Positions 34,309-58,495 of a stretch of 64,000 nt of DNA are shown here, piece by piece. Positions within the stretch are counted from its first letter, which is position 1. Every line of letters starts with the position of its first letter. The stretch covers positions 153,230 to 217,229 of the forward strand of contig NZ_QUKD01000004.1 in assembly GCF_003480915.1 (NCBI RefSeq), given 5' to 3'. The stretch comes from Parabacteroides sp. TM07-1AC. GTDB taxonomy: Bacteria > Bacteroidota > Bacteroidia > Bacteroidales > Tannerellaceae. The translations under genes were made by a program, and so were the position numbers. Below the pieces are notes generated by a model. It saw only the letters and a program-made list of their open reading frames with translations. It ran no database searches and had not been told where the DNA came from.

Positions 34309-35919
34309 TTATCGGCTTCCTCCGGCCCACCAAACATTTTCAGAAAATACATACTGACCATTGCCATAAGCATTTTTAACATTAGGATTGGTTGTAACGT
34401 CATCGCTGCCGTAAGGCGTGCGTAGCGGAAATTTACCCGGATTCTCGAAGTCATAGATGTCATGACCTTCTGATTTCAAACGACGTACATCGTTATAGCA
34501 TTCGGTTGATTCACCGTTCGCTCCCCAAAATGCCAGATACTTCTGGATCATTGTTTCTTTTAGCGGATCTGCATTGAACAAAGGAACAACTTCTGTCTCA
34601 AAATATTCTTCAGCCTCTGCTATTGTTACAGCTTCTGTTGAGTTACCTTTAACCGGAACAGAGGTGTTTTCCAAAGCTGCATCAACGCTAACTTCCATAT
34701 TCATCAAACCGGCAACAATAGCTTCTTTCAATGTTGCTTTTGCTTCTTCCAAACGATTTAATCTTACTAAAGCTTCAGCTTCCAGGAATTTAACTTCATG
34801 GTAACTCATGAACATAGTAGGCGCAGTTGCAGCAAACAAGAAAATAGATGTGTTATAAACTTCCTGTACCTGTTGAGGCTTGCCGTTGGGAGCCATCATG
34901 GATAAGAAGTTCTCTTCCTTTCCTGTTAATTGTTTGCTGTAAAAACCTTCGGCACCCAGACTTTCATCGGCACCGATAGCATCAGCAAAAGCACGATGTA
35001 AGCGTGGATCATTACGAACGATCAGTTTTTTTGTCAGACTGGCACTGGCTGCAGTATATTCGCGGCTATAGAAAAAATCAAACAAAGGGTTTAAATTAGC
35101 AACACCGTCATACACATTGAAAGCTGCTTGATCACCAGCATTCTGTGCAGCTTTTTTGCAGCATTCTAAAACTGTATTTAATGCAGCGGTTTTATCTTCC
35201 GTCACATTTAATGTATGCATTGTATAACGTGCTTTTAGTCCGTAAGCTAACTTTAACCATTTGTTGGCATCTCCTTTGAACAGAATATCCTGAGCTCCGG
35301 GTTTACCTGTTGCATGTGTATCTCCTTTAGGAAGGTCTTCAATAGCGGCATCCAGGTAGGCAATGATAGCAGTGTAAATATCTTTCTGTTTGTCCATCTC
35401 CGGTGTCATGAACTGAGGTTTACCATTGTCTAATTGAGGCAATGCTGCCTGGCTGAAAGGTGCATCTCCAAAAGCATCAGCTATCAGACCTGCATTTACA
35501 GCAGCCAAAACTTCACCCATACCTTTTGTTGTATAGTTACCGGGTTGACTTCCTTCTTCCGAGCATTTGTCGATAATAATACGTGCATTTTTCAATGAAC
35601 TATAAACTCCTCCCCAAATATTGTTGAAGGTGGCAGATGAATAAACCTCAGAAACACGGGTTTCAGCATTGTATAACTGATTGAAAATACCAACTTCATT
35701 TTCTACATAAGAAGAAAAGTAGTGGTTGAAATCGCCACCGATATTACTGAATGCTGTAGAAGTGATTACATCTGTCAGAATGAATTTAGCATCGACACTG
35801 TGCGGATTGTCTATATCCTGGTTGATCTTGTCCATTTTGTCTTCAGAGCAAGAGAACAAAACTCCGGCTACTAAAGCTACAGACAGATATGTTTTAATTT
35901 TATTATATCTAACTTTCAT
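34309..35919 (-). CDS. SusD/RagB-type lipoprotein of silent cassette 1
   Basis: A 536-residue outer-membrane lipoprotein (signal with lipobox VLFSC) of the SusD_2 branch. Such proteins cap a SusC channel and bind the substrate. Helical repeats typical of the branch are visible: FNNIWGGVYSSLKNARIII, GLIADAFGDAPFSQAAL, YHEVKFLEAEALVRLNRLEE and the C-terminal VWWAGG. It follows its susC partner by 11 bases. As the susC body lacks a promoter, this gene should also be silent in the present orientation. Confidence 0.9.
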   Translation of the reverse strand: MKVRYNKIKTYLSVALVAGVLFSCSEDKMDKINQDIDNPHSVDAKFILTDVITSTAFSNIGGDFNHYFSSYVENEVGIFNQLYNAETRVSEVYSSATFNNIWGGVYSSLKNARIIIDKCSEEGSQPGNYTTKGMGEVLAAVNAGLIADAFGDAPFSQAALPQLDNGKPQFMTPEMDKQKDIYTAIIAYLDAAIEDLPKGDTHATGKPGAQDILFKGDANKWLKLAYGLKARYTMHTLNVTEDKTAALNTVLECCKKAAQNAGDQAAFNVYDGVANLNPLFDFFYSREYTAASASLTKKLIVRNDPRLHRAFADAIGADESLGAEGFYSKQLTGKEENFLSMMAPNGKPQQVQEVYNTSIFLFAATAPTMFMSYHEVKFLEAEALVRLNRLEEAKATLKEAIVAGLMNMEVSVDAALENTSVPVKGNSTEAVTIAEAEEYFETEVVPLFNADPLKETMIQKYLAFWGANGESTECYNDVRRLKSEGHDIYDFENPGKFPLRTPYGSDDVTTNPNVKNAYGNGQYVFSENVWWAGGSR

Positions 35920-35930
35920 ATTATTTTTGT

Positions 35931-38882
35931 TTAAAATTTGAATGTTAAACCGAAACCGTAACTAGAACTTCCCGGCATAGAGAAACGTTCGAATGCACCA
36001 GCCATGTTGTTGTTTCCTAAAGTCGCTTCCGGATCAAGACCTGGTAATTGAGACCAAAGAAGAATATTACGTGCAAATACACTAGCAGTAATATTTAAAT
36101 ATGATTTTTCAAAGACAGGGTAGCTTAAAGATATTTCACGCAGTTTGATGAATGAATTATCGTAAACACTGGCTTCATCGATAGCATTCATTGCGTTGAA
36201 GTAGTCGTAGGCATTTTCTCCTTTGATCTTGATATCATTCGGAGAATAAGAACCGTCAGCATTTTGTTTAACCGCTGATTTTTCAAATAAGAATTCGGAC
36301 ATTTTGCGATAATCGGCAGAACGTTGAGTTACACCATAATAGTCAAGAACACCCATTGTTCCGCTATAGATCTGTCCTCCTTGTTTCCAATCAAGAACTG
36401 CTGATAAACGGAACTTATACAGTTCGAATGTTGTATTGAATCCTAAACGGAAGTCTGGAGAAACTTTACCGATAACCTGAGGTTCACCTGCTTGAGGCAA
36501 ACCATTTTCATCGACAATGATCTGTCCTGCATCATTACGCAAATAACCGGAACCGTAAATAACCGGGAATTTATCACCGATACCTGCACGTACCTGAGGT
36601 GTTACGAAACCTCCCAACATAATGCTATTTACGCCTTCTGCCAGTTCATCCACATAATTGTCGATTTTAGAGAAGTTAAATCCGAAGTCCCAGTAAATAT
36701 TCTTTTTCTCGATCGGTTTAACTGTTAAAGTGATCTCATGAGAATTAGTGTGAATAGCCCCGCCATTTGTTACCATAGAACTATAACCGGTAGAAGTTGA
36801 CAATGGAACTTCAAAGATTTGATCTTTTACGTTTTGGCGAGAGTAGGTATAATTTACAGAAACCAAACCGTTCAGGAAAGTCAAATCTAAACCTAGTTCA
36901 TAAGATTTGGTGTTCTGCGGCTTTAAATTCGGGTCATATATTTTGTAATAAGGGATATACGCGGTTGTAGAACCGAACGGATATTGAATAGGAGTACCTG
37001 CTGAGAAACCACCACCATATCCTGGTGTATAATATAAATTATCTACATAATCTCCGGCCATACCAACTTCTGCATAAGAACCACGTATTTTACCAAATGT
37101 AAGAATATTATTGTCTTTCAAAGCGGGTAGTTCTGTAAAGATCCATCCCAAAGAGACAGAAGGATAAGTAAATGAACGACTACCACGCGGCATGGAAGAT
37201 ACGATGTCATTACGAACAGTTGCGTTTAGGTACAGCATGTTTTTCCAAGATAAAGCCAAATTTCCGAAATTACCTACTGTACGCTTTTTAGTTGTACTTT
37301 GATTGGCTTGGAAAGTTGTAGCATTACCGATATGATTCCAGCCCGGAAAGTTAAAGTTGTATCCTTCACCGGTTGTAATTCTTGTAGATTTATTTACAAA
37401 TTCATTGCCATATAATACATTTAAATCCAATTCCGGAGTAATTTTCCAGTCGTAATTCAATGTGAACAAAGAGTTCATTTCATTGATATGATAACTGTCC
37501 TGACGAGAGTAACCACTTGAATAACTTTTATCGCCATATCCGTAATTATCGGAATAAATGGTACTGTAAGCATCTGCTCCTAACTGGTATTTTGCTGTCA
37601 GAATATGATTTTCGCCAAATTGGGTCTTATACTGTGTATAGGCATTACCGAAAAAGCGTTGTGAGCGTTCTACGAAAGAGTTATTTTCGCTAGCCCAGTA
37701 AGCATTATTGAATGTAGTAGGACGGTAGTTGTTTTGTGTATAAGGGTCGCCGTCTACGTGCGAAGGAATGCCGTTAAAGTCATAGCTGGAGGGTGAACCA
37801 TAAATAGTTGCGACAACACCTTCATTACCTGCACTCTGTTTTCTGATCTTTGATGTTACAAAGTTTCCGCTGAAACCTGTTGTCCAATGCTCGCTTAAAT
37901 TGGCTGTAGCATTCAATTTTGCATTGTAACGGTCCATACCTGTATTAGGAATAATACCTTCGGTAGTATTATTACCTAATGAGAATGAATAATTACCTTT
38001 ATCAAACGCCTGTGCAACATTGACGTTATTGCTCCAGGATACTCCTGTGTTGAAGAAATTCTTGGCGTTGTCGTAAGCACGCGGTGTAGCCCAAGGATCT
38101 AATCCGGCTGCTGCACGCTGAGACACATAATACATTCCTTCATGTTTACCATACTGCTGTGTATAAGTATTATCCGTATTACCTCCATAATTGGGGTCAT
38201 TTGCTAGGTCGGATATTTTCGGTCCCCACGCTAATGAAGATGTAGGAGAGAATGTACCGCTACCTTGTGCAAATTCTTTCTGGAATTCAGGAAGAGTTGA
38301 TACTTTGTCGAATGCCAGATTAGAAGTGAATGTGATAGAAGGCTTACCTTTTCTTGCATTTTTTCCACTCTTAGTTGTAATAACAATTACGCCGTTAGAA
38401 GCACGCATACCATAAAGGGCAGAAGCGGCTTGGCCTTTTAGGATATTGATACTTTCAATATCGTTAGGGTCCAGGTCGACAGCACGGTTAGCAAAGTCTG
38501 CTCCAGCAACACTACCAGTATTTCTTTTGTCTGTGTCAATATCTGCAGCAGATGCAATGGGCATACCATCAATTACATACAGCGGAGTATTGTCACCCGT
38601 AAAAGAACGGACACCACGAATCGTGATTTGAGAGGAGGCTCCTGGCATACCTGATGAAGGAGTAATATCTACACCCGAAACTTTTCCTTGTAATGCAGAA
38701 GAGATGCTAGTGCTGGCTGCACGTGTTAAATCATCTCCTTTTACATCCTGAACAGCATAACCTAATGCTTTCTTTTCTTTAGAAATCCCCATTGCTGTAA
38801 CAACAACTTCTTCAATATTCTGTGTATCAGAGTTTAACAGAATATTTATCACAGGCTTAACAGAGACTTCCTGGCTTTTCAT
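35931..38882 (-). CDS. SusC/RagA TonB-dependent transporter body, silent cassette 1 (no promoter, no signal peptide)
   Basis: About 983 residues from the Met in SYVGMKSQ. Plug domain: EEVVVTAMGISKEKKALGYA, TPLYVIDGMPI, GMRASNGVIVITTKSG. The rest is the 22-strand barrel ending in SYGFGLTFKF. Missing are the signal peptide and the carboxypeptidase-like domain present in the complete paralogue at 52049. Upstream of SSAKT the frame quickly meets a stop, and no start codon or -7 box precedes it. The gene would become functional when joined at the 14-bp core (38905-38918) to the expression head. Paired with susD at 34309. The substrate is unknown. Confidence 0.9.
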   Translation of the reverse strand: MKSQEVSVKPVINILLNSDTQNIEEVVVTAMGISKEKKALGYAVQDVKGDDLTRAASTSISSALQGKVSGVDITPSSGMPGASSQITIRGVRSFTGDNTPLYVIDGMPIASAADIDTDKRNTGSVAGADFANRAVDLDPNDIESINILKGQAASALYGMRASNGVIVITTKSGKNARKGKPSITFTSNLAFDKVSTLPEFQKEFAQGSGTFSPTSSLAWGPKISDLANDPNYGGNTDNTYTQQYGKHEGMYYVSQRAAAGLDPWATPRAYDNAKNFFNTGVSWSNNVNVAQAFDKGNYSFSLGNNTTEGIIPNTGMDRYNAKLNATANLSEHWTTGFSGNFVTSKIRKQSAGNEGVVATIYGSPSSYDFNGIPSHVDGDPYTQNNYRPTTFNNAYWASENNSFVERSQRFFGNAYTQYKTQFGENHILTAKYQLGADAYSTIYSDNYGYGDKSYSSGYSRQDSYHINEMNSLFTLNYDWKITPELDLNVLYGNEFVNKSTRITTGEGYNFNFPGWNHIGNATTFQANQSTTKKRTVGNFGNLALSWKNMLYLNATVRNDIVSSMPRGSRSFTYPSVSLGWIFTELPALKDNNILTFGKIRGSYAEVGMAGDYVDNLYYTPGYGGGFSAGTPIQYPFGSTTAYIPYYKIYDPNLKPQNTKSYELGLDLTFLNGLVSVNYTYSRQNVKDQIFEVPLSTSTGYSSMVTNGGAIHTNSHEITLTVKPIEKKNIYWDFGFNFSKIDNYVDELAEGVNSIMLGGFVTPQVRAGIGDKFPVIYGSGYLRNDAGQIIVDENGLPQAGEPQVIGKVSPDFRLGFNTTFELYKFRLSAVLDWKQGGQIYSGTMGVLDYYGVTQRSADYRKMSEFLFEKSAVKQNADGSYSPNDIKIKGENAYDYFNAMNAIDEASVYDNSFIKLREISLSYPVFEKSYLNITASVFARNILLWSQLPGLDPEATLGNNNMAGAFERFSMPGSSSYGFGLTFKF

Positions 38883-38904
38883 ACCTACGTACGAAATTAC
38901 CAGA

Positions 38905-38918
38905 GTCTTTGCAGAACT
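38905..38918 (-). repeat. Recombination core, copy C1
   Basis: AGTTCTGCAAAGAC on the minus strand, in the frame coding SSAKT. It continues into ACTCTGGTAATTTCG and a further 20 bases almost identical to the expressed copy. Inverted with respect to the copy at 52244. Confidence 0.8.
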
Positions 38919-39167: not shown

Positions 39168-40379
39168 TTATTTGAATTCCATCAAAAATTTGCGGATCGG
39201 AATCTGTTTTATTCCTTCATATGAAATCCCCTCTATTTCATCCATTGTAATAACCATCTTAGGATAATTGTCCTTTATTGCTAAGAGGTTTCCAAATTCA
39301 CGCTCATAAGTTTTGGGATCCATTACAGAATAGGCTACTTGTATATATATTTTTTCTCCATCTTTCACACCAACGAAGTCTATTTCTTTATCTCCATCCC
39401 TTCCTACCGATAAAGTGTAGCCGTTGACAAGAAGATGATGGCATACAATATTCTCTAATACTTGTGCTATATCGTTTGCTCTGAAAGGACGGATCGCATG
39501 TCGAATCCCCAAATCTTCAAAATAATATTTTTCTCCGATTTGAAACTGACGTTTTCCCTGGATATCTGACGGACGTAACCTTTTTACAAAGTAAGCATTA
39601 TTCAGATAATTCAAGTATTCTAATATGGTTTTAGGAGGCAAATCGACACGTTGAGATTTAAGGTATTCACTTATTTTATTGGCTGAAAACAAATTACCAA
39701 TCGTATCAGCCAAATATATTGTTAAATCCTGTAACTGTCTGACATTCCTTATATTATATCTATTTACTACATCCTTAAGTATAATTGTGTCATAAATACT
39801 TCGTAAATAATCCGAAACCAGTAATTCATTAAAAGGTAGATTTATTAAATATGGTAAACCTCCAAACTTATAAAACTTAGTGAAAGAATCGGAACTATCT
39901 TCCAACTTATGAAACAGTAAGAACTCTTTATAAGTCAAACTATATATTTTAAATTCGATGTACCGACCGCTTAAATAGGTTGCCAATTCACTTGAAAGCA
40001 TATTAGCATTACTTCCAGTACAATATATATCATAACTTCCTTCTGCAAAGAAATGTCGCAATGCTTTCTCAAAACTCGCAATATCCTGTACCTCATCAAT
40101 AAACAAAAAACATTTATTGTTCGGATCATTACGTTTCTGTGTTACATAATTTATCAGATCTGCATAGTCTTTTAAGCTGTCGAATTCAAACAATTCTTTA
40201 TTAATATAGATTATATCCGAAAGCGGGTATGAGATGCGTATATAATCCATTAATTGGAAAAGAAGAAAACTTTTTCCAACACGGCGTTGACCGGTCAGAA
40301 CTTTTATCATCTGTGTATTGACAAATGGTTTGATACGATCAAGATATAAATCTCTATTATAGAACTCCGGAGTTTTCAT
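39168..40379 (-). CDS. AAA ATPase with DUF4143-type C-terminus (ATPase 1)
   Basis: A 403-residue protein. Walker A is GQRRVGKSFLLFQL (about 30-43), Walker B CFLFIDEVQDI, sensor region YCTGSNANMLS. The C-terminal half fits the DUF4143 nuclease-like domain (GEKYYFEDLGIRHAIRPF, GDKEIDFVGVKDGEKIYIQV). Such ATPases are common in Bacteroidota accessory regions; their function is unproven. It sits between the terminator of silent cassette 2 and the core of cassette 1. The gene is visibly AT-rich. Its promoter is flanked by two CTTATAAG palindromes. Confidence 0.87.
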   Translation of the reverse strand: MKTPEFYNRDLYLDRIKPFVNTQMIKVLTGQRRVGKSFLLFQLMDYIRISYPLSDIIYINKELFEFDSLKDYADLINYVTQKRNDPNNKCFLFIDEVQDIASFEKALRHFFAEGSYDIYCTGSNANMLSSELATYLSGRYIEFKIYSLTYKEFLLFHKLEDSSDSFTKFYKFGGLPYLINLPFNELLVSDYLRSIYDTIILKDVVNRYNIRNVRQLQDLTIYLADTIGNLFSANKISEYLKSQRVDLPPKTILEYLNYLNNAYFVKRLRPSDIQGKRQFQIGEKYYFEDLGIRHAIRPFRANDIAQVLENIVCHHLLVNGYTLSVGRDGDKEIDFVGVKDGEKIYIQVAYSVMDPKTYEREFGNLLAIKDNYPKMVITMDEIEGISYEGIKQIPIRKFLMEFK

Positions 40380-40387
40380 TTTTTATT

Positions 40388-40574: not shown

Positions 40575-42236
40575 TTAGTCAACTACTCCATCAGTCAGAC
40601 CTGCACCTTCACCACTCTGTGGTAATGTACCTTCATTATTATTGTCTGATTCCGAAATACCGTTGTTGGCATTAATTTCATTACGCGGGATACGCATCAG
40701 CAACCAACCGTTGTTGGCAGCCAAATTAAATTTGAATCCATCCGGGAAGTTACTCTCGACACGATTGTTGAAACGAACAACATTTTTCTGAAGACGTAGG
40801 ATATCAAATAAAGCAAATCCTTCTCCCCACAATTCAACACGGCGCTGCATCCATACTTCATCCTGGAATCCTGTAGCAGAAGTAGCTTTGCTTGTATAAG
40901 ACGGATCACGATAATTCTTTACGAAATCTTCCAGGATACGTTTTCCACCACCGAGATCTCCGCTCATAGCTTTAGCTTCAGCCTGGATCAAGATCATTTC
41001 TTCTGCACGCATCATACACCAGTCACCGGCATTGATGTTATTCCCCAAAATACCCTGATAAGCACCAAACTTAACGTTTGTATAAGGAAGATATGCCATT
41101 TTTACATCAGGAACTACCAACGGTCCGATAGGTTGTCCATCGTAGCCTCTCCAAGATACATTTTTCAGGTTCGGAGAATCCAGTTTTTCATCTACCCACC
41201 ATCCTTTTCTTACATCCGTATCCGGTATCTTCGTATAAAGCAGCGTATTGATCATTTTATAACATCCAACACCACAAGAATATGAATCACCAGAGAAAGA
41301 AGAAATCACAGAAGGCCATGAAGGATAAGCATCCGGCATATTGGTCGGAGTCAGAATCAACGCCCACATCCAGTTATGGTCATTAGAATCAACGAAACCC
41401 GGTTTGCTTACTTCGTCACGGCTATAAGGAGTATATCCGCCTAATGCATTTGTTGCATCTTCATAAGCAGCAGCCCAGTTTTGCATAACCAGATTTGCAC
41501 GAGCGCGAAGTCCATAAGCCACATTCTGATCGATCTCGTTTTTAGACTTTCTGTTGTATCCTTCCAACAAAGGAATTGCAGTATTCAGGTCGTCCATGAT
41601 CAAGTCATATACTTCTTGAACAGATGCACGCGGATTATTCAACAGATCACCTTCTACCTTATCTGTCACAATCGGAACAGCCGGCTTACTTTCATTTCCT
41701 TTATAAGTGAACTGATACTGCTGAACCAGTGTCAGATAATCGAATGCACGGGTTGCGATAGCTTGTGCCTTATAGTAATTAAGTGTTTTATCCGTATTAT
41801 CTTCCGGGATAGTGGCGATAATATCGTTTGCCATTTTAATCTGGTTGTAAATCATAGCCCAACGCATATTCGGATTTGCATAATTATATATTCTATCCGC
41901 ATATTCACTGGCAACGGAGAACCAGTTATATCCACTGGCATCACTCACCATGTCCGCTCCATTCAAATCCAGCGACAAACAAGCTGCCGGATAACCGAAG
42001 TCGTCATCACGTGGATTATCTTCACCATACACACAATACTGTTTACCGATTGAAAAGTACATACCGCTCAAATCGGCTGCTACACGTTCGGGAATTGCTT
42101 CCGCTATTTCCTGTTTCTGGTCAGAAGTAGAATTTCCGCCTTCGGGTTGTGTATCTAGATCTGTACAAGAGGCAGTTGCCAAAACCAGTCCCGGAATTAA
42201 TATCCATGATTTATTTATAAATTTCATAATCTTCAT
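40575..42236 (-). CDS. SusD/RagB-type lipoprotein of silent cassette 2
   Basis: A 553-residue lipoprotein (lipobox LATASC). SusD helices: NPNMRWAMIYNQIKMANDII, KAQAIATRAFDYLTLVQQYQ, ARANLVMQNWAAAYEDATNA, and the characteristic C-terminal VELWGEGFALFDILRL. It closely resembles the SusD of the expressed operon (55248), as do their SusC partners. It begins 19 bases after its susC. No own promoter is seen. Confidence 0.92.
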   Translation of the reverse strand: MKIMKFINKSWILIPGLVLATASCTDLDTQPEGGNSTSDQKQEIAEAIPERVAADLSGMYFSIGKQYCVYGEDNPRDDDFGYPAACLSLDLNGADMVSDASGYNWFSVASEYADRIYNYANPNMRWAMIYNQIKMANDIIATIPEDNTDKTLNYYKAQAIATRAFDYLTLVQQYQFTYKGNESKPAVPIVTDKVEGDLLNNPRASVQEVYDLIMDDLNTAIPLLEGYNRKSKNEIDQNVAYGLRARANLVMQNWAAAYEDATNALGGYTPYSRDEVSKPGFVDSNDHNWMWALILTPTNMPDAYPSWPSVISSFSGDSYSCGVGCYKMINTLLYTKIPDTDVRKGWWVDEKLDSPNLKNVSWRGYDGQPIGPLVVPDVKMAYLPYTNVKFGAYQGILGNNINAGDWCMMRAEEMILIQAEAKAMSGDLGGGKRILEDFVKNYRDPSYTSKATSATGFQDEVWMQRRVELWGEGFALFDILRLQKNVVRFNNRVESNFPDGFKFNLAANNGWLLMRIPRNEINANNGISESDNNNEGTLPQSGEGAGLTDGVVD

Positions 42237-45234: not shown

Positions 45235-45250
45235 GTACGAAATTACCAGA

Positions 45251-45264
45251 GTCTTTGCAGAACT
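45251..45264 (-). repeat. Recombination core, copy C2
   Basis: AGTTCTGCAAAGAC on the minus strand, preceded by CGT and followed by TCTGGTAATTTCGTACGT. It is identical to C1 over about 35 bases. Inverted relative to the expressed copy. Confidence 0.8.
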
Positions 45265-45460: not shown

Positions 45461-45474
45461 CTAAAAGGAGGTGT

Positions 45475-48494: not shown

Positions 48495-48523
48495 AATTGT
48501 AATTTTTCTACTGTTTTATAATC

Positions 48524-51460
48524 TTAGAATGTAACATTTGCTCCAAAAGTAAACGAACGCTGCTGAGGCATACCATTCCAGTCTACGCCCAGACGAGTGT
48601 TAGTTTCCGGGTCCAAACCTGAGTACCCGGTGATAGTGAACAAATTCTGAGCCTGTGCATACACACGTACCTTTGTTATATTTATTGCCGATAAAACAGA
48701 TTTCGGCAAAGTATATCCCAAAGCCAGGTTAGACAGTTTCAGGTAATTTCCTTTTTCAACGAAGTGAGAGTCAGTGAAACCGTCATTAAACAAGACAGAC
48801 TGGTCATTATAACCGATTCTTGGAGTCATACCATCACCCGTTTGTGTAGGAGATACCCATCTGCCTAAAATTTCCTTACCGTTATTAGCAAATTCCATAT
48901 TCATCAAAGCGCTCTGGCGAGAGGCATTCATGATTTTATTACCGCCTGAGAAACGAAGGAATACATTCAAATCAAAATCTTTATAGGTTATTGTATTGTT
49001 CCATCCACCATACCAGGTAGGCATAGATGAACCTAATATTTTACGGTCGCTGGATCCTAAAGAGGATGGTTTGGATACGTCTTTAGCATTGGACGGATCA
49101 TATTCAACATAGTCATACGAGCCGAATGTATCGAACTGAACCAGGCTGCCATCAGCTTTTCTCCAGATAGGGTTACCATTTACCATATTGACACCGTAAT
49201 AGTCGTATCCGTATAGTGAACGATAAGACTCACCTTCGCGAATAATTGTATAATTGTCAATGATATCAGTTCCACCATACAATGACTTAACTGTATTCTT
49301 TACAGTAGAGAAGTTCAATTCTGAACGCCAGTTCCAATCTTTCGTTGAGATAACTGTTCCACTTACGGTCAGCTCAAATCCGGAGTTCTTAATTTTACCA
49401 ATGTTATCGTAATATGAATTGTAAGGAATACCCATTGTCGGAGGAGTCGGAACTTCCAATACAAGGTCTTTTGAATTTTTCTGCCAATAAGCCAGCTCAA
49501 ATGTCAGACGGTTGTTGAAGAAAGAACCATCCAGGCCTAAATCGAAAGTTTCGGTCGTTTCCCATTTCAGGTTGTTATTACCCATGCGGTTCCAGGCAAC
49601 ACCGGATTGCGAGCCGTACAGTTTCGCTCCATAAGTTCCCAAATACGGGAAGTTATTACCCAAATCTGAATTACCTAATGTAGCGTAGCTGGCACGAATA
49701 CGCAAATCGTTGAACCATTCGTTCACCTGAGAATCTTTCCAGAAGTTCTCACGGGATAAACGCCATGCAACAGAAGCTCCCCAAAACGTACCCCAGCGAG
49801 TATCTTTCGGCAAACTGGACAATCCATCGTAACGGATAGATGCACCTGCATAATATTTACTATCATAATTGTAGTTCGCACGGAACATATAAGAAGCAAG
49901 CCCGTTAAATGTTTTGTATCCGCCGATATCTTTTATTCCAAAAGTATTGGAGATAATATGGTCTGTAAAGAACCTGTCGGACAACTGCTGAACGGCAGCA
50001 TCTGTATATTCATACTCACTGTGAGTGTATTCCTGAACAGCTGTTGCACTTAAATTATGCACATCGTTAAATGAACGGTTAAAATTCAGGATATTTTGCC
50101 AGTTCCAGTTTTCGTAAGTTGTATTTACTTCTTCAAGCAAACCTTTACGTCCATAACCGTCACCTGATTCAGAATCCCAATACATGAAGTCTTTTACATT
50201 AGAGATATCGAGACCTCCCTGAGTTTTCAGTGTAAGTCCGTCTATAATAGTGATCTCAGCCCAACCACCACCGATGGTACGTGTATTGGTAGAGCGGTTC
50301 ACATTATTATCCAATGCCCAAACGATGTTTTGAATACCATTGTCGATATAAGAAAGATTGTTTCCGCGTCCCAATGTTTTACGGCTTTCTTTATCAATAT
50401 TGTAACCTGTTACATCATTAGGATCGAAAACGGCCACATTCGGAAGCATACGAACTCCGGCAAAACCTACACCACCCAGTGAGTTTTCCGAATTTGATAT
50501 ACCATTCAATTTGGTCCGGCTCATTTGGCCATTCAAACCAATACGTAACCATTTTGTTGCCTGCTGGGTCAAATCGGCTTTCAAAGTCAGACGATTCATA
50601 TCATTTGAACGAACAATACCTTCCTGCTCTGTAAACCCGAAAGATACATAATACTGACTTTTGTCTGTACCACCGCTGGCAGCAACGTTGTGATTATGCT
50701 GGAAACCGGTCTGGAAGATATAATCGTTCCATTTTGTATCAGGATCTGAAGCATTATAAACCGCTTGTCCTTTCTCATCCCAGTTCTCTAATTTTTCATT
50801 AGCGATCATGACAAAATCTTTTGCACCCAAAAGATCATGTAATTTAGCTGCACTGGCTGCACTTACATATCCGTCATAAGTAACTTTAGCACGTCCTTTT
50901 GTTCCCTTTTTCGTAGTGATCAAAACAACGCCATTCGCTGCACGTGAACCATAAATGGCCGTAGCAGCACCGTCTTTTAATATTTCAACTGATTCAATAT
51001 CATTCGGGTTTATATCCGACATGGCATTGAATGAAGCATACAACTGTCCCAGACCGGTTTTACCATCTCCATTGTCTCCGGTAGCGATAGGCATACCGTC
51101 TACAATAAACAGTGGTTGTGAGCTGGAGCTGATGGTACTCATACCGCGAACCTTAAACTGAGGTCCAGCACCGAGTACTCCGCTAGGGGTTGTAACTTGT
51201 ACCCCGGCAGCACGTCCTGCCAGCTGGGTATCAAATGAGGATGCTACCAGGTTGCTAAGCGCTTCGCCTCCAACTTTGGCGATAGAGCTTGTAACATCTT
51301 TCTTGCGTTGAGTTCCATAGCCTACAACGACAACCTCATCGAGGTTCTGTGTATCTGATTTCAACTTGATATAAACCCTGGAAGACACCGCCAGCTCTTG
51401 AGTTTCCATACCTACGTAAGAAACGACCAGCGTCTTTGCAGAACTATGTTTTTTATTCAC
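48524..51460 (-). CDS. SusC/RagA TonB-dependent transporter body, silent cassette 3
   Basis: About 970 residues after the shared junction. Plug: DEVVVVGYGTQRKKDVTSSI, QPLFIVDGMPIATGDNG, GSRAANGVVLITTKKG; the barrel ends in FTFGANVTF. A GTG at 51460 gives a short chance start (NKKHSSAKT) without signal peptide, so a protein from it could not be exported. The N-terminal carboxypeptidase-like domain is missing. The core is at 51432-51445, only 800 bases from the expressed copy in inverted orientation, making it the nearest switch partner. Confidence 0.9.
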   Translation of the reverse strand: MNKKHSSAKTLVVSYVGMETQELAVSSRVYIKLKSDTQNLDEVVVVGYGTQRKKDVTSSIAKVGGEALSNLVASSFDTQLAGRAAGVQVTTPSGVLGAGPQFKVRGMSTISSSSQPLFIVDGMPIATGDNGDGKTGLGQLYASFNAMSDINPNDIESVEILKDGAATAIYGSRAANGVVLITTKKGTKGRAKVTYDGYVSAASAAKLHDLLGAKDFVMIANEKLENWDEKGQAVYNASDPDTKWNDYIFQTGFQHNHNVAASGGTDKSQYYVSFGFTEQEGIVRSNDMNRLTLKADLTQQATKWLRIGLNGQMSRTKLNGISNSENSLGGVGFAGVRMLPNVAVFDPNDVTGYNIDKESRKTLGRGNNLSYIDNGIQNIVWALDNNVNRSTNTRTIGGGWAEITIIDGLTLKTQGGLDISNVKDFMYWDSESGDGYGRKGLLEEVNTTYENWNWQNILNFNRSFNDVHNLSATAVQEYTHSEYEYTDAAVQQLSDRFFTDHIISNTFGIKDIGGYKTFNGLASYMFRANYNYDSKYYAGASIRYDGLSSLPKDTRWGTFWGASVAWRLSRENFWKDSQVNEWFNDLRIRASYATLGNSDLGNNFPYLGTYGAKLYGSQSGVAWNRMGNNNLKWETTETFDLGLDGSFFNNRLTFELAYWQKNSKDLVLEVPTPPTMGIPYNSYYDNIGKIKNSGFELTVSGTVISTKDWNWRSELNFSTVKNTVKSLYGGTDIIDNYTIIREGESYRSLYGYDYYGVNMVNGNPIWRKADGSLVQFDTFGSYDYVEYDPSNAKDVSKPSSLGSSDRKILGSSMPTWYGGWNNTITYKDFDLNVFLRFSGGNKIMNASRQSALMNMEFANNGKEILGRWVSPTQTGDGMTPRIGYNDQSVLFNDGFTDSHFVEKGNYLKLSNLALGYTLPKSVLSAINITKVRVYAQAQNLFTITGYSGLDPETNTRLGVDWNGMPQQRSFTFGANVTF
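51432..51445 (-). repeat. Recombination core, copy C3
   Basis: AGTTCTGCAAAGAC on the minus strand, followed by GCTGGTCGTTTCTTACGTAG, so it differs from the other copies by several bases after the core. Confidence 0.78.
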
Positions 51461-52243
51461 TTATCACCCATCATTCATGATGAGCAGACTCAGGGGAGTA
51501 CATTACTATATAGATATGGGTAACTTTTATGCACTTTTTATCTTATTAATTTAGAAATAGAAATATTCTTGATTACGACTTTTTTTAGAGTAAAAAAATA
51601 AAAGATCAAGATGCTTTATACGAAAAATGAGTATTGAAAAAGATCCATGCGGCGTTACGTTTCAACAGTGCGTACTGTATTTCTGCATAAATTTAGGGCA
51701 AAAAAAGCTTTGTCTTTTCTACCAAAATGGACCCAACACCTTTTTAGAGCATGATTTACTTACCTAGAAGAATAAACAAGGTCCGGTTAAAAATAAGAAA
51801 ATTTAAACTATCAGCCCTGTTAATTTATGAAATAGGAAGATGAATAATTATCAGAAAACAGCCATTTGAAGGACTATTTAGTTAATTAACAGTCTGTTTT
51901 TTGTAAATTCCTGTTACATTTGTAGTGTTATAATAAATTTATTATTACATTTGCAGCTTCTCAGATATGTTTTAGAATAGGTTTTAGGCGAATTATACAT
52001 AATATAGTACAAATTAGTTATCTATAAGTTAAATAAAAAAGTGTGTCTATGAAGAAGTTGACTTATCTTCTATTTTGCCTGTTTTTAGGCATTGGATTGG
52101 CTAATGCTCAGACGACCAAAGTAACAGGTACTGTTATTTCGGCGGATGACAATGAGCCAATTATTGGTGCATCGATTGTCGTAAAGGGTACGATGGTCGG
52201 TACAGTGACTGATTTTGATGGTGCGTTCTCTTTGGATGTACCA
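51446..52243 (+). promoter_or_regulatory. Predicted invertible expression head (promoter, leader and first 65 codons of susC)
   Basis: The segment lies between the inverted cores C3 and A. It contains about 600 non-coding bases and the first 195 bases of the expressed susC. The non-coding part is AT-rich and holds the only convincing promoter of the four susC-susD units, with a possible -7 TACATTTG at 51946-51953 and an upstream repeat of the same word at 51915-51922. Inversion would turn this promoter to face cassette 3. The 580-base gap upstream of susC is therefore control DNA; I see no gene in it. Confidence 0.7.
51946..51953 (+). promoter_or_regulatory. -7 promoter box of the expressed susC-susD operon
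   Basis: TACATTTG matches TAnnTTTG. TTTG at 51919-51922 may be the -33 box, though the spacing of 23 bases is longer than usual. Transcription would start near 51960, giving a leader of about 90 bases before the ATG at 52049. Confidence 0.5.
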
Positions 52244-55225
52244 AGTTCTGCAAAGACTTTGGTAATTTCGTACGTAGGTATGAAAAGCCAGGAAGTAGCT
52301 GTAAAACCAGTATTAAATGTAATGTTGGAAGGTGATAATCAAGTGCTTGATGAAGTTATGGTTGTTGCGTATGGTACTGCAAAGAAATCTGCATTTACCG
52401 GATCGGCTGCAACGATTAAAACCGAAAAGATTGCAGCACGTCAGGCAGCCAACCTGACAGGTGCTTTGGCTGGTCAGGTTGCCGGTGTACAAACAACCAA
52501 CAATAACGGACAGCCAGGTAAAGATGCTGAAGTACGTATCCGTGGCATCGGTTCTATTTCTGCCAGCAATAAGCCATTGTATGTAGTGGACGGTGTTCCT
52601 TACGATGGCGAAATTTCAGCAATCAGCACTTCTGATATTGAATCGATGACAGTGTTGAAAGATGCAGCATCGAATGCTTTGTATGGTGCTCGTGGTGCTA
52701 ATGGTGTAATCTTAATCACTACTAAAAAAGGTAAGTCCGGTGATGCTCGCGTGACATTTGATGCTAAATGGGGTGTTAACAAACGCGGTATTCCTTCATA
52801 CGAAGCTGTAACAGATCCGGGTAAGTTCTATGAATTGGCTTATGCGGCTATTTATAATGGAGACTTGGAAGGATATGCGGCGGCGGGTGATCTAGCTAAT
52901 GCAAATCTTTATGCAAATAACGCTATGCTTTCCAGCAGTTATTTAGGATATCAAGTATTTACTTTACCGAATGGTGAACGGCTGATCGGCATGGATGGTA
53001 GATTGAATCCGAATGCAAAATTAGGATACAGTGATGGTACATATTATTATAAACCTGACAACTGGAGCGATGAATTGTTCGAAAACAATACCCGTCAAGA
53101 ATATAACTTGAGTGTCAGCGGAGCTACTGAAAAAATGAACTATTATATGTCTGCAGGTTATTTGGATGATAAGGGTATTGTTCCGAACTCAGGTTTTCAA
53201 CGTTATACAGCTCGTTTGAAAGCGGAATATCAAGTGAAATCTTGGTTGAGAATGGGTGGTAATGTCTCATTTACTCATTATGACAGCCGTGAACAGGATA
53301 CAGAAGGTGGTACTTCCAATGGTAATGCTTTCTATGCTGCTAATATAATGGGGGCTATTTATCCGATGTATATCCGTGATGCAGAAGGAAATATCATGAC
53401 TGACAATCGTGGTTACAAGCGCTATGATTACGGATCTGATACAAACTTCAGCCGTGAAAACGTAGTTCCGAATGCGAATCCGCTGGCTAGCTATATGTTG
53501 GATAAGAGAAACTATTCTGGTGATGTAGTAAGCGGTAAATGGTTTGCTGATATTGATATTTGGGGTGGCATTAAAGCTAAAATCAATATCGGTGTTGATG
53601 CAAATAACGTACGTATGAGAGATTTAATAAATCCATTTTACGGACAGTATTCAGAAACAAGTGGTGTTGGTGGTATTATCAATACTGAAGCTACTCGCTC
53701 ATTCAGTACAAACCAGCAGTATTTGTTGACTTACAATAAGACATTCAATGATGTTCACAATTTGGATGTTTTGGCAGGTCACGAAAACTATAATTATAAG
53801 TATTCTTATCTGTATGGTAGTCGTGAGAAGTTGTATAACCCGAATGTTCCTGAACTGAACAATGGTATCCTGAACCAGAACAATGCATCTTACACAAACA
53901 ATTATGCTACAGAAGGTTGGTTGTTCCGTGTACAATATGATTATGATGGCAAATATTTCGGTTCTGCTTCTTTCCGTCGTGATGCTTCTTCTGCTTTCCA
54001 TCCGGATAACCGTTGGGGTAATTTCTGGTCAATCGGTGCTGGCTGGTTGATGAACAAGGAAGCTTTCTTAGCTGATCAGAATTGGATCGATATGTTGAAG
54101 TTCAAAATTAGCTATGGTTTACAGGGTAATGATAATCTGATGTTTCAAGGTGGTTTATACCGTAACTACTATCCTTATATGGATCAGCTAACCTTATCTA
54201 ATAGTAATGGCGATTTTGCAACCTCTTTGTATTATAAAGGTAATCCGGACATCACTTGGGAAACATCACACAGTTTCAATACCGGATTTGACTTTAATTT
54301 CTGGGGTGGAAAGTTAAGTGGTACTGCTGAATACTTCTCACGTAAGACAACTGATATGCTTTACTTTAAGCCGGTTTCTCCGTCTATGGGATATTCCCGT
54401 TATCCGGAAAATGTAGGTTCAATGGTAAACCGTGGTGTTGAAGTAGATTTGAACTCTGCTATCATTGATACAAAGAATTTTAGCTGGAATATCAATTTGA
54501 ACTTGACGCATTTTAAGAATAAAGTGTTGGAATTAGCCCCTGAATTGAATGGACAGTTGATTGATGGTTCTCGTATTTATCGTGAAGATGAATCTATGTA
54601 TCAACTTTATTTGCCTAAATATGCGGGAGTTAATCCGGAAACAGGTGAAAGCCAGTGGGCATTATTGGAACCGGATAAAGATGGTAATACAGTTACTACT
54701 GAATATTCTGTAGCTTCTAATAATCGTTTTGCTACAGGTGATATTTTGCCGAAAGTATATGGCGGTTTTGGAACTAGCTTCACTGCTTACGGATTCGATT
54801 TCTCTATTGCATTTGCTTATCAGTTAGGCGGACGTGTTTTGGATTATACCTATCAAGGTTTGATGAGTGTTGATGCTCAGGGATCTGCTTGGCATAAAGA
54901 TATGTTGAATGCCTGGACTCCGGAAAATAAAAATACAGATGTTCCCCGTATGAATGTACAAGATCAGTATGCTAACAGATTGACGGACCGTTTCCTGACA
55001 AGTTCCGATTATTTGAGTTTACAGAATATCACATTCGGTTATACATTGCCGAAATCATTGACACGGAAGTTCCAGGTTGAGGGTATTCGTTTGTATTTCG
55101 TAGCAGATAATGTTGCATTACTCACAGCGCGTAAAGGGCTTGATCCACGTCAGGGTTATGTGTCTTCTGATAATGTTTATTCACCGATCCGCACTATCTC
55201 AGGCGGTATCTCTTTGAATTTCTAA
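52049..55225 (+). CDS. SusC/RagA TonB-dependent transporter, complete expressed copy
   Basis: A 1,058-residue outer-membrane transporter. Signal peptide KKLTYLLFCLFLGIGLANA; carboxypeptidase-like regulatory domain (residues about 22-100, VTGTVISADDNEPIIGASI); plug with LYVVDGVPYDGEISAI and GARGANGVILITTKKG; barrel ending in GGISLNF. It imports a large nutrient, probably a glycan, using TonB energy with its SusD partner. The ATG at 52049 is preferred over the GTG two codons upstream. The core AGTTCTGCAAAGAC (52244-52257) codes for SSAKT at residues 66-70, exactly where the three silent paralogues begin. Confidence 0.95.
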   Translation: MKKLTYLLFCLFLGIGLANAQTTKVTGTVISADDNEPIIGASIVVKGTMVGTVTDFDGAFSLDVPSSAKTLVISYVGMKSQEVAVKPVLNVMLEGDNQVLDEVMVVAYGTAKKSAFTGSAATIKTEKIAARQAANLTGALAGQVAGVQTTNNNGQPGKDAEVRIRGIGSISASNKPLYVVDGVPYDGEISAISTSDIESMTVLKDAASNALYGARGANGVILITTKKGKSGDARVTFDAKWGVNKRGIPSYEAVTDPGKFYELAYAAIYNGDLEGYAAAGDLANANLYANNAMLSSSYLGYQVFTLPNGERLIGMDGRLNPNAKLGYSDGTYYYKPDNWSDELFENNTRQEYNLSVSGATEKMNYYMSAGYLDDKGIVPNSGFQRYTARLKAEYQVKSWLRMGGNVSFTHYDSREQDTEGGTSNGNAFYAANIMGAIYPMYIRDAEGNIMTDNRGYKRYDYGSDTNFSRENVVPNANPLASYMLDKRNYSGDVVSGKWFADIDIWGGIKAKINIGVDANNVRMRDLINPFYGQYSETSGVGGIINTEATRSFSTNQQYLLTYNKTFNDVHNLDVLAGHENYNYKYSYLYGSREKLYNPNVPELNNGILNQNNASYTNNYATEGWLFRVQYDYDGKYFGSASFRRDASSAFHPDNRWGNFWSIGAGWLMNKEAFLADQNWIDMLKFKISYGLQGNDNLMFQGGLYRNYYPYMDQLTLSNSNGDFATSLYYKGNPDITWETSHSFNTGFDFNFWGGKLSGTAEYFSRKTTDMLYFKPVSPSMGYSRYPENVGSMVNRGVEVDLNSAIIDTKNFSWNINLNLTHFKNKVLELAPELNGQLIDGSRIYREDESMYQLYLPKYAGVNPETGESQWALLEPDKDGNTVTTEYSVASNNRFATGDILPKVYGGFGTSFTAYGFDFSIAFAYQLGGRVLDYTYQGLMSVDAQGSAWHKDMLNAWTPENKNTDVPRMNVQDQYANRLTDRFLTSSDYLSLQNITFGYTLPKSLTRKFQVEGIRLYFVADNVALLTARKGLDPRQGYVSSDNVYSPIRTISGGISLNF
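52244..52257 (+). repeat. Recombination core, expressed copy A
   Basis: AGTTCTGCAAAGAC on the plus strand. After one mismatch (T for C at the 16th base) identity with C1 continues for about 36 bases, through the GMKSQE codons. Confidence 0.8.
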
Positions 55226-55247
55226 TCCGTAAATGTATTTAGAGAAT

Positions 55248-56828
55248 ATGAAAATGACAAATAAATATTTAATGTTCGCAGGTGTTGCTTTAGCACTGGC
55301 TTCCTGTGATTTGGATAAATTGCCGGAAGGTCAATATGTAGGTGGCGAACAAAACGAGGATATTATCGAACAGCGTCCGAATATGGTGATAGCTGGTGTG
55401 AATGCAATGTCAGCCCAGTTGAATGTATTCGGCACTATTTCCGATGATGCAAATACATATCACAATGATTATGGTATAGCAGCCGTTTTCCAGTTTTATG
55501 ATCAAAGTTGTCAAGATATGCCTTGTACGACTTCTGGTTATAACTGGTTTAATCGTTCTCAGAATTATTCAGATCGTCTTTATGATAGTTCTGAAGGCGA
55601 ATTGATTTGGAAGACATATTATAACCATCTGAAAGCAGCAAATGATGTTATTGCATTGACAGAGGGGACTGATGATCCCACTATGTTGGTTTATCGTGGT
55701 CAGGCTTTAGCTGCCCGTGCTTTCGATTATCTGAATTTAGCTCAGACTTATCAATTTACATATGTTGGTCATGAAAATGATCTTTGTGTTCCGATCATTA
55801 CAGAAGGAATGACAGAAGAAGAAATGCAGACGAATCCGCGTGCTACAGTTGCTCAGGTTTATGAATTGATTATGTCTGATTTGAATCAAGCTGTTGAATT
55901 ATTGGCAGGTAATGATAACGGTACAAATAAGGACAAGATTGACGAAGCTGTTGCTTATGGTCTGCGTGCTCGTGCCAATCTGTTAATGCAGAAGTGGGCA
56001 GATGCTGCTAAGGATGCAGAAAAGGCTTTGGCTGGTGGAACTCCGTATTCTTTGGCTGAAGTGTCAAAACCGGCTTTCAATTCAGCTTCTGCTGATTCCT
56101 GGTTGTGGGGTGTGATGATTACTCCGGATAATGATGTTGTAACGACCGGTATCATCAACTGGCCGTCGCACTTGTGTTCATTGACTGGTAACGGATATAC
56201 AACTTTGACAGGTGCATGGCGTTATGTAAGTTCTGCATTATATAATCAGATTCCGGATACAGACATCCGTAAACAATGGTTTATTTCTCCGGATACAACC
56301 TCTACTTTGGTTGATAATGCTTCAGTTGGAGGTGAATCTGTGATTGATTATTTTGGTTTGACACCTTATGCTAATGTGAAATTTGGTGCTTATCAGGATG
56401 TAATGGGTAATACGACCAACTCTCAGGACTGGCCTTTAATGCGTGTGGAGGAAATGTACTATATCAAAGCGGAAGGTGAAGCAATGTCCGGAAACGTATC
56501 TGCAGCAAAACGTACATTGGAAGATTTCGTAAAAACGTATCGTAATCCGTCATACAGTTGTACGGCTTCTTCTGCTCAGGATTTGCAGGATGAAATTTGG
56601 TTGCAACGTCGTATGGAATTTTGGGGTGAAGGTTTTTCTTTGTTCGATGTTTTACGCCTAAAAAAACCTATCGTACGTAAGAATACGAATTATGCTGCTA
56701 TTGTTCAGTATAATATAGAACCGGAGTCTCAGATTTTGATTTATCGTATTCCGCAATGTGAAATGGAAACCAATAAAGGTATTGCAGATAAAGACAACAA
56801 TCCTGCAGCGCCTCAACCTACTGTATAA
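55248..56828 (+). CDS. SusD/RagB-type lipoprotein of the expressed operon
   Basis: About 526 residues; the lipobox is LALASC. SusD helices: YYNHLKAANDVIALTEG, RGQALAARAFDYLNLAQTYQ, ARANLLMQKWADAAKDAEKA and the C-terminal MEFWGEGFSLFDVLRL. It binds substrate at the surface and caps the SusC channel. It follows susC by about 20 bases (Met codons at 55233, 55248 and 55254 are possible). It resembles the SusD of silent cassette 2. A terminator follows. Confidence 0.93.
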   Translation: MKMTNKYLMFAGVALALASCDLDKLPEGQYVGGEQNEDIIEQRPNMVIAGVNAMSAQLNVFGTISDDANTYHNDYGIAAVFQFYDQSCQDMPCTTSGYNWFNRSQNYSDRLYDSSEGELIWKTYYNHLKAANDVIALTEGTDDPTMLVYRGQALAARAFDYLNLAQTYQFTYVGHENDLCVPIITEGMTEEEMQTNPRATVAQVYELIMSDLNQAVELLAGNDNGTNKDKIDEAVAYGLRARANLLMQKWADAAKDAEKALAGGTPYSLAEVSKPAFNSASADSWLWGVMITPDNDVVTTGIINWPSHLCSLTGNGYTTLTGAWRYVSSALYNQIPDTDIRKQWFISPDTTSTLVDNASVGGESVIDYFGLTPYANVKFGAYQDVMGNTTNSQDWPLMRVEEMYYIKAEGEAMSGNVSAAKRTLEDFVKTYRNPSYSCTASSAQDLQDEIWLQRRMEFWGEGFSLFDVLRLKKPIVRKNTNYAAIVQYNIEPESQILIYRIPQCEMETNKGIADKDNNPAAPQPTV

Positions 56829-56850
56829 GGTAGTTTTGATATATTGATAA

Positions 56851-57144: not shown

Positions 57145-57152
57145 TATCTTTG
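57145..57152 (+). promoter_or_regulatory. -7 promoter box of the recombinase gene
   Basis: TATCTTTG matches TAnnTTTG and would give a leader of about 170 bases before the ATG at 57332. The remaining 500 bases between susD and the recombinase contain the terminator, AT-rich DNA and no gene. Confidence 0.4.
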
Positions 57153-57331
57153 TACACTCATAGTAGAAATGAGTTTTCCGGATCATTTGTTTTTTAAGGC
57201 AAGGGTAAGACGTGATATCGTCTTTTCGGAACTCCGGTAAATATGTAATAACAAATTTTTAATTTGTCTTAGACATAAGAAAGAACTAATTATTGTTCCT
57301 TCGTGTTTCATTCAGAAAATAATTATATATC

Positions 57332-58495
57332 ATGGAAAAAGTAATTTATAACTTGGTGTTCAACCGTAAAAAACAGTTGAACTCAGAGGGTAAAGCTTTG
57401 ATTCAGGTAGAAGCCTACCTGAACAAGCAGAAAAAGTATTTTTCGACAAAGGTTTATGTCAAGCCTTTTCAGTGGGATGCAAAGAGAAAAGCAGTGAAGA
57501 ATCATCCTAATATGGAGTCTTTAAATCAGTATCTGACTAATTTCATTGCAGAATTGGAACAGGTGGAGCTTGAAGTTGCTCATAGTGGTAAAGAGTTTTC
57601 TTTGAGTGATCTGAAAGAGAAACCTGATGCTGGTCAGACTTCTTTTTCTTTGTTTATGAAAAATGAGATCACTCAGAGTAATCTGAAACAGTCAACGCTG
57701 AAGAATCATTTTTCGACATTACAGGTGTTGTCTTCGTTTCAAGCGGATGTGAGTTTCAATGATCTGAGCTTTAATTTTCTTTGCGATTTCGAGCATTATA
57801 TGCTGGTAAATAAATATCATCGGAATACGATTGCTAAACATATGAAGCATTTGAAGCGCTACATAAACCTGGCTATCAATAAGGATCTGTTTGATTTGCA
57901 CCGTTATCCTTTCCGCAAATATAAAATAAAGTATATGGAAAGCAAACGAACTCATCTTACACCGGAAGAATTGGAGCAGTTGGAAAGTTTAAATCTGAAA
58001 GGTCGCCGGACGCTGCAACGGACACTGGATATGTTCTTGTTCAGTTGCTATACTGGGCTTCGTTTTTCGGATATCGTAAGTATCACGAAGGATAATTTTC
58101 TCTTTATCGAAGATAAAGTCTGGTTGATCTATTCATCTGTTAAAACAGATGTCCATGTTCGTCTGCCTTTGTTCTTATTGTTTGATGGGAAATCTCTTCC
58201 TATCTACGAGCGTTATAAGAATAATCCGTGGACCTTGTTCGATATGCCAGTCTCTTCCAATTCGAACGTGAACAAGCAATTGCGCCGGATTTGTAAGATG
58301 GCGAATGTAGATAAGAAAGTCTCATTCCATACGGCCCGGCATACGAACGCTACATTATTATTATATAACGGTGCAAATATTACGACTGTACAGAAGCTTT
58401 TAGGACACAAAAGTGTGCGTACAACAGAGATATACAGTAATATTATGGACATGACTGTGGTTCGTGACTTATCGAGTCTGTCAAGTGTTAAATGA
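57332..58495 (+). CDS. Tyrosine recombinase, likely invertase of the susC shufflon
   Basis: A 387-residue site-specific recombinase. An arm-type N-terminal domain (about 1-95), a SAM-like core-binding domain (about 105-195) and the catalytic domain follow in order. All catalytic residues are seen: Arg244 in TGLRFSD, Lys271 in SSVKTD, His333 and Arg336 in FHTARHT, His359 in LLGHKS, Tyr368 in TTEIYSN. The size matches Bacteroides invertases and transposon integrases. It lies directly beyond the expressed susC-susD operon, without phage, transfer genes or a tRNA target nearby, which points to local inversion at the AGTTCTGCAAAGAC cores. Related Bacteroides fragilis enzymes invert SusC/SusD loci. 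The link here is inferred from position. Confidence 0.92.
   Translation: MEKVIYNLVFNRKKQLNSEGKALIQVEAYLNKQKKYFSTKVYVKPFQWDAKRKAVKNHPNMESLNQYLTNFIAELEQVELEVAHSGKEFSLSDLKEKPDAGQTSFSLFMKNEITQSNLKQSTLKNHFSTLQVLSSFQADVSFNDLSFNFLCDFEHYMLVNKYHRNTIAKHMKHLKRYINLAINKDLFDLHRYPFRKYKIKYMESKRTHLTPEELEQLESLNLKGRRTLQRTLDMFLFSCYTGLRFSDIVSITKDNFLFIEDKVWLIYSSVKTDVHVRLPLFLLFDGKSLPIYERYKNNPWTLFDMPVSSNSNVNKQLRRICKMANVDKKVSFHTARHTNATLLLYNGANITTVQKLLGHKSVRTTEIYSNIMDMTVVRDLSSLSSVK

Follow-up and report, generated by a model that had tools for sequence, protein, structure and literature searches.

A probable SusC/SusD shufflon in Parabacteroides with a predicted crossover inside the importer gene

SusC/SusD shufflons under the control of the tyrosine recombinase Tsr0667 are described for Bacteroides fragilis (PMC4747536 and PMC11852207). 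In region EE of that species, the repeats overlap the susC start codon and lie downstream of an invertible promoter (PMC5729914). Bacteroides thetaiotaomicron carries oppositely oriented susC/D pairs, BT2263/2264 and BT2268/2269 (MAFF), together with the invertase homologue BT2267; the same source names a Parabacteroides distasonis ortholog of BT2268 and reports BT2268 with a reverse-oriented SusC/D pair in the bacteria compared (PMC6080902). Nutrient-receptor shufflons of B. thetaiotaomicron are also mentioned elsewhere (PMC12548429), inversion states near susC/susD reportedly differ between inflammatory bowel disease patients and controls (PMC10939037), and numerous inversion sites have been reported in P. 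distasonis (PMC5903667). Here we describe a locus of Parabacteroides sp. TM07-1AC, located in a stretch of 64,000 nucleotides (positions 153,230 to 217,229 of contig NZ_QUKD01000004.1, assembly GCF_003480915.1; hereafter the window). The locus is very probably a Tsr0667-type SusC/SusD shufflon in which crossover would take place within the coding sequence; from sequence comparison, we give this reading a probability of about 0.93.

The only pair with a head, i.e. with the N-terminal part of SusC, among the four susC/susD pairs in the window is a complete operon on the plus strand (52043–56828). Its susC frame opens at GTG 52043, and translation from ATG 52049 gives a product of 1058 amino acids that also occurs in other genomes. 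The remaining pairs lie on the minus strand as open reading frames 48524–51460/46899–48494 (B1), 42256–45234/40575–42236 (B2) and 35931–38882/34309–35919 (B3). Exact copies of one 14-mer, AGTTCTGCAAAGAC, stand at all four junctions (Table 1), each in the same frame and read as SSAKT. From this site, the silent genes have open frames of 973, 1002 and 995 codons with intact partner susD genes, but upstream of it their frames continue for only 5, 11 and 5 codons, so there is neither a signal peptide nor the initial half of the CarboxypepD_reg domain. PF13715 reaches full length only when read across the head–body junction (CarboxypepD_reg at 27–107 in the frame counted from GTG), and the headless bodies match, weakly, at most the last part of that domain. 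A sequence-only reading of this DNA had described the full plus-strand operon, three minus-strand susC genes without an N-terminus, the same sequence in the same frame at four junctions and, after the active operon, a tyrosine recombinase with its catalytic set; all of these were borne out. With up to two mismatches, AGTTCTGCAAAGAC has seven matches in the window against 0.40 expected and at most three in 100 shuffles, on which grounds chance repetition was rejected as the origin of the copies. Around the site, 62 nt are 84–85% identical among the three silent copies and 78–80% identical to the head copy. This likeness is local, since the SusC bodies share only 25–30% identity pairwise, except for A and B2 (55%).

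Table 1. Features of the locus (positions within the window).
Feature	Positions	Strand	Remarks
Head site AGTTCTGCAAAGAC	52244..52257	+	Codons 66–70 of complete susC, inside CarboxypepD_reg domain
Site of B1	51432..51445	-	Exact AGTTCTGCAAAGAC
Site of B2	45251..45264	-	Exact AGTTCTGCAAAGAC
Site of B3	38905..38918	-	Exact AGTTCTGCAAAGAC; P. goldsteinii collinearity ends at 38918
Likely -7 box TACATTTG of promoter ahead of head	51946..51953	+	Inside element TTATAATAAATTTATTATTACATTTG, 51928–51953
Constant head	52049..52243	+	Signal peptide and first part of CarboxypepD_reg domain, 65 codons; on different bodies in relatives
SusC body A, joined to head	52258..55225	+	TIGR04056; headless in P0244 at 99.7%
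SusD partner of A	55233..56828	+	Solved SusD-like relatives; orthologs after body A in G008, G016, G017, G038
Silent SusC body B1, headless	48524..51445	-	TIGR04056; 97% ortholog, also silent, in P. goldsteinii
SusD partner of B1	46899..48494	-	PF07980, PF14322
Silent SusC body B2, headless	42256..45264	-	TIGR04056; headed in P0123 at 99.39%
SusD partner of B2	40575..42236	-	PF14322, PF07980
Silent SusC body B3, headless	35931..38918	-	TIGR04056; headed in P. goldsteinii
SusD partner of B3 (SusD-like_2)	34309..35919	-	PF12771; nearest solved structure 3fdh
AAA ATPase 1, passenger in invertible region	45475..46620	-	Present in G001, G002, G008, G016, G017, G038
AAA_14/DUF4143 ATPase 2, passenger	39168..40379	-	Candidate defence model PDC-S01; 89% ortholog in G038
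Tyrosine recombinase, likely shufflon invertase	57332..58495	+	PF00589, PF17293, PF13102

Between the sites at 51432 and 52244, the promoter and head make up a segment of their own, 0.8 kb long. In the mechanism that we propose, this segment, carrying the promoter and the first 65 susC codons, would end at the site AGTTC-TGCAA-AGAC, with which each of the four bodies (susC from codon 66 plus susD) would also begin. A recombinase, most likely the one encoded at 57332–58495, would exchange strands at two opposed sites and invert the intervening stretch, which would bring a different body into frame with the head. Starting from the arrangement seen in the window, a single inversion of 0.8, 7.0 or 13.4 kb should lead to expression of B1, B2 or B3, respectively. 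When inversions of opposed sites were computed, 12 orders were reachable, with A and B3 expressed in two each and B1 and B2 in four each. The silent bodies carry their sites in the same orientation, as direct repeats, and recombination between these could also delete bodies. Deletion would fit the differing body sets of relatives, as would exchange between species, which is suggested by a B2 at 99.4% identity in a genome with a head that departs from that of the window at 6 of 65 residues. Bacteroidota promoters follow the consensus TAnnTTTG. The promoter element TTATAATAAATTTATTATTACATTTG is near-identical in 8 of 11 aligned head regions, altered in G026 and SIG124 and absent in G029 (G labels denote genomes, L labels loci), while a leader ending in AAAAAGTGTGTCTATG is kept in all 11. 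Because promoter and head move as one piece, the body adjoining the head should be the expressed one, and cells would presumably gain by varying the importers that they display. Differences between cells of one population in nutrient uptake and in exposure to phage or antibody, which the sequence-only reading had proposed, may follow but reach further than this evidence. A further element, GGTTAAAAATA...AATTTTAA at 51785–51807, lies upstream of the promoter and is conserved in several of the 11 genomes. At 16558–18328 of L005, the head is duplicated in tandem, its first copy on a body that ends after about 300 residues.

The comparison with other genomes supports this reading through the anatomy of the locus, body exchange, breakpoints at the site, co-varying sites and a conserved enzyme. 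Between the window and Parabacteroides goldsteinii (G001), the flanks (27458–34217 and 57081–63968) are collinear, as is the B3 block (34302–38918), where collinearity stops with the final base of the B3 site; the stretch 46898–52318, containing B1, promoter and head, is inverted. One inversion between the sites at 38905 and 52244 would explain the order of these shared parts. The P. goldsteinii head is 97% identical to that of the window and is joined to a B3 ortholog (91%). Over the 90 nt upstream of this junction, it is 100% identical to the head side of the window and 31% to the sequence upstream of B3; downstream, B3 fits best (78%, versus 73% for A). The B1 ortholog is silent there at 97% identity. 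In P. gordonii (G002), the head stands on a body 49% identical to B3, and B1 is silent at 94%.

Among database protein entries, B2 is headed in P0123 (99.39%) and headless in P0121 (the window), P0122 and P0124; over 990 residues, all are at least 99.29% identical and have four different N-termini, while P0125 begins inside the motif. The head of P0123 is identical to that of P. gordonii G002, and 6 of its 65 residues differ from the window head. P0241–P0243 and P0245–P0250 (41 contigs) carry body A with a head, and P0244 (99.7%) has it headless, with another N-terminus; P0251–P0260 (49 contigs) are body A entries that start at an internal Met and are headless or cut at the site. G008 and G017 have an A ortholog (84%) joined to a head; in G016 and G038, the ortholog at this identity is silent. 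For a second body, which G016 and G017 share at 96% identity, the states are the other way round, with the head on it in G016 and a silent copy in G017. The swap between these two genomes is thus reciprocal. The sequence-only reading had proposed looking for other orders of the bodies in relatives, and such orders were found: B3 is headed in P. goldsteinii and B2 in P0123, and A is headless in P0244, G016 and G038. Full N-termini on the silent genes, which it had regarded as a contrary sign, were seen only in other genomes, as switching predicts. In Phocaeicola plebeius, one SusC body occurs with and without head sequence (P0316, P0317 and P0347, 99.9% over 980 residues), and one body of P. 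barnesiae does likewise (P0285/P0294, 98.4% over 997), which points to similar switches there. In G038 (L074, 15740–19516), B1 is split, with residues 362–973 on one strand and 1–416 on the other at the contig end, from either rearrangement or misassembly.

The exact 14-mer was found in 12 of 38 genomes of the genus. P. goldsteinii has four copies, every one in this locus, and the 56 SusC matches scored in the rest of its genome contain none; the possibility that the site is general SusC sequence was rejected because of this confinement. When 30 of those other SusC genes were read (of 56 scored, from 181 candidates), the wider motif was present in 19 with at least six mismatches and not found in 11, and two unshuffled SusC encode SSAKTL by different codons. 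Close examination of 13 genomes with four listed site variants gave 11 heads and 24 silent junctions, the latter including one 54-codon fragment (G008) and one frame ending after 416 codons (G038). The variants co-vary in two species: AGTTCCGCAAAGAC in L013 and AGTTCTGCAAGAAC in L015 are each identical in head and silent body, and the 15-mer of L015 is a perfect inverted repeat, AGTTC-TGCAA-GAACT. A conserved cap motif upstream of the silent sites was also considered: a T at position -28, present in 21 of 24, and a few other columns exceed a shuffled control that ignores relatedness. In P. acidifaciens, a contig terminates at the first base of the site, and the assembly gave no DNA match to promoter plus head. 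Stray exact 14-mers were considered as distant targets and set aside in five cases (G002, G008, G009, G015, G016), which have no SusC match around them; a stray copy in G038 sits on a 72% B3-like body beside an N in the contig and may be a scaffold join.

The neighbouring enzyme (57332–58495) probably acts at these sites, to judge from linkage, conserved catalytic residues and the type of site. Residues R244, K271, H333, R336, H359 and Y368, which we take to be the catalytic set, are invariant in 17 of 17 aligned copies (the window and L001–L016; L017–L019 were left out). Searching with the recombinase gave 19 loci, the best in Parabacteroides, with 95% identity in P. faecis, 91% in P. goldsteinii and 88% in P. 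gordonii; over 5.1 kb beside it, the DNA matches P. faecis at 91% identity, and the window thus comes from a Parabacteroides close to that species. In L004, L005 and L006, the same recombinase lies beside a divergent pair of susC genes, both headed, and inverted sites of this type stand on either side of the DNA between the two genes. A degenerate site, CGTCTTTTCGGAACT (57219–57233), precedes the recombinase start by 113–114 bases and occupies the same place in L001, L002 and L003; self-regulation through it is possible.

The locus resembles the B. fragilis Tsr0667 shufflons in combining a tyrosine recombinase, several susC/susD pairs and multiple inversions; the earlier reading had named Tsr-type inversion in that species as a precedent. 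We take the Tsr0667 site consensus to be AGTYYYN4GDACT. Read on the other strand, three of the four window sites fit it exactly and the B1 site with one mismatch; at one mismatch, the pattern occurs 20 times in the window against 17.8 expected, so the weight of the match lies in its falling on predefined sites. Headed and headless pairs that are exchanged, the match to the presumed consensus and the catalytic set together mark the locus as very probably Tsr0667-type. The layout of B. fragilis region EE does not apply, as the crossover in the window falls at codon 66 and the moving piece would be promoter plus head. The B. thetaiotaomicron locus BT2263–BT2269, as published, likewise has opposed susC/D pairs and an invertase homologue, but two pairs in place of four bodies. 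The deposited chain of its BT_2264 (PDB 5fq6_B) starts MQTQEV, with the Met at the SYVGM position, equivalent to a headless start. Unlike the window, P. distasonis L006 has both divergent susC genes headed, with sites flanking the intergenic stretch. The R64 Rci shufflon couples one constant end to exchangeable C-terminal pilin ends through inversion by a tyrosine recombinase. The window shares the constant end, the several exchangeable ends and the type of enzyme, but in the window the promoter-bearing constant end is at the N-terminus, and susD travels with the body. The kind of shufflon is already in print for B. fragilis and B. thetaiotaomicron. The earlier reading had held that this particular locus and its substrate set may not be described, and no description of a four-body Parabacteroides locus turned up in the literature searched, with Milman 2023, which could list it, outside the search. 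What appears new is the Parabacteroides locus with an intragenic crossover unlike the region EE description.

Several observations count against a switch run by this enzyme. The evidence for inversion comes from comparison between genomes, and reversibility within one clone is something that we infer from it. P. goldsteinii has two further bodies unlike B2 and A of the window (about 32% to B2), and ATPase 2 was not seen in the stretch of that genome read, so inversion is not the only difference between the two loci. No headed B1 copy above 84% identity was found among the matches listed, and the 981-residue body A entries could derive from contigs cut at the site. The silent site of G003 differs in its first base, and 7 of 18 genus genomes with a full-length recombinase ortholog had no exact 14-mer and no variant seen, variants having been sought only at fetched loci. 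Because the recombinase was the search query for L001–L019, linkage at those loci is partly by construction. In G029, the shufflon cluster is present with an enzyme relative of only 51% about 20 kb off, and in G026 the ortholog is on a different contig.

Such findings leave room for a different genomic recombinase acting on inversions that are real, with the neighbour a passenger or directed at another target. The genomes contain from 2 to at least 50 related recombinase matches each; G022 has 21 sites of the pattern AGTTCN5GAACT and no close ortholog (31%), and in G029 no close ortholog stands next to the shufflon. We nevertheless regard another enzyme as unlikely, since this pattern is dense near orthologs of the neighbouring one: the window and L001–L019 (20 sequences, 405 kb) hold 12 exact copies, in 6 of the 20 and none in the window itself, against a rough expectation of 0.39 if all bases were used equally. 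Invertible-promoter layouts also stand beside this enzyme in L004, L005 and L006. The exchange of bodies could instead have arisen by homologous recombination, or by gene conversion, where susC genes resemble each other at the 5′ end, and the likeness of the bodies just downstream of the site given above would provide a substrate. Upstream, however, the similarity ends: in 15 of 16 comparisons between P. goldsteinii and the window, the 90 nt before the site are only 22–38% identical (the 16th, head against head, is 100%), compared with 57–78% downstream. The sites also co-vary as units, a tyrosine recombinase adjoins, and the 56 other P. goldsteinii SusC matches keep long open frames of 1015–1194 codons; together, these points make homologous exchange extremely improbable. 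Decay of the headless genes into pseudogenes, with slow evolution and not a running switch behind the orders in relatives, would accord with sites that have no start or long frame upstream and with evidence drawn from different genomes. It agrees poorly with headless frames that are all open over 973–1002 codons beside intact susD genes, and with B2 and A each occurring in both states at 99.3–100% identity, and we consider it very improbable.

The shufflon might be one output of a wider system. Counts of AGTTCN5GAACT far exceed those of a reversed control pattern in G002 (54/2), G038 (46/2) and P. goldsteinii (45/2), and the corresponding counts are 25/7 in G008, 24/7 in G017, 22/9 in G016 and 21/2 in G022. 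Of the 38 Parabacteroides genomes, 22 have no more sites than control matches. Site pairs were examined in two rich genomes, P. goldsteinii (45 of 45 sites) and P. gordonii (42 of 54 listed). Where two sites lie within 1.5 kb of each other, their 5-bp centres are reverse-complementary in 13 of 13 pairs of the former genome and 15 of 16 of the latter, versus 9 of 1822 other pairs. The centres are distinct for 13 of 13 pairs and 14 of 15, respectively. Six places were read, of which L082–L085 were picked for a TGCAA centre and L086 and L087 for susC known nearby. A site pair lies just upstream of susC in L082, L084 and L087; the pair of L085 is elsewhere, and L083 has a single site. In P. goldsteinii L086 (4924–5497), an inverted site pair overlaps two divergent genes lying ahead of susC genes that are themselves divergent, and inversion there may exchange the ends of the two genes.

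We tentatively suggest, as something that we would not yet bet on, that some Parabacteroides have a genome-wide switch in which Tsr0667-type invertases act on AGTTC-N5-GAACT sites and the 5-bp centre serves as an address. The centre would be the likely crossover, so that a site recombines mainly with its own partner, and tens of promoters and susC bodies could share an enzyme without scrambling of the chromosome. The four bodies of the window would interchange through one common address, TGCAA, placed inside a conserved protein motif. Tsr0667 is reported to act on nine other regions as well (PMC4747536), which the wider sites fit. Against addresses of this kind, some recur: three of 13 in P. 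goldsteinii and two of 15 in P. gordonii are found again at a lone site elsewhere, and TGCAA is also present in other pairs of both genomes. In P. goldsteinii, 19 of 45 sites have no near partner. That one enzyme governs all of these sites is not established, and G022, with its 21 sites and a nearest relative at 31%, argues against a sole enzyme. Matching 5-bp centres would offer a rule for predicting which inversions can occur in a genome.

Comparative evidence thus extends to another major gut genus the idea that DNA inversion changes which outer-membrane importer a cell is able to produce. One and the same body stands in databases as a complete importer in some entries and as a truncated gene in others, and annotation of a single genome therefore misreads these genes. 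By E-value, the nearest solved structures are BT_2264 (5fq6) for B3, RagA for A with the head and 8aa4 for B1. Bound oligopeptides are reported for Bt2261–64, and RagAB is called a peptide importer; this hints at peptides as the cargo of bodies A and B3, a guess at these distances. Two ATPase genes are placed between the silent susC/susD pairs, and ATPase 2, within the invertible region, matches the candidate anti-phage model PDC-S01 at 1e-145. Rfam, searched at gathering scores over 33500–59000, gave no match. A perfect 64-bp palindrome (46658–46721) lies just upstream of the ATPase 1 gene; it is long and near-perfect, with changed arms, in G002, G008 and G017, shorter in G016 and reduced to remnants in G001 and G038. 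A similar hairpin, GTAGAATTTGAGT...ACTCAAATTCTAC, follows both AAA-ATPase genes, at 39086–39125 and 45422–45461.

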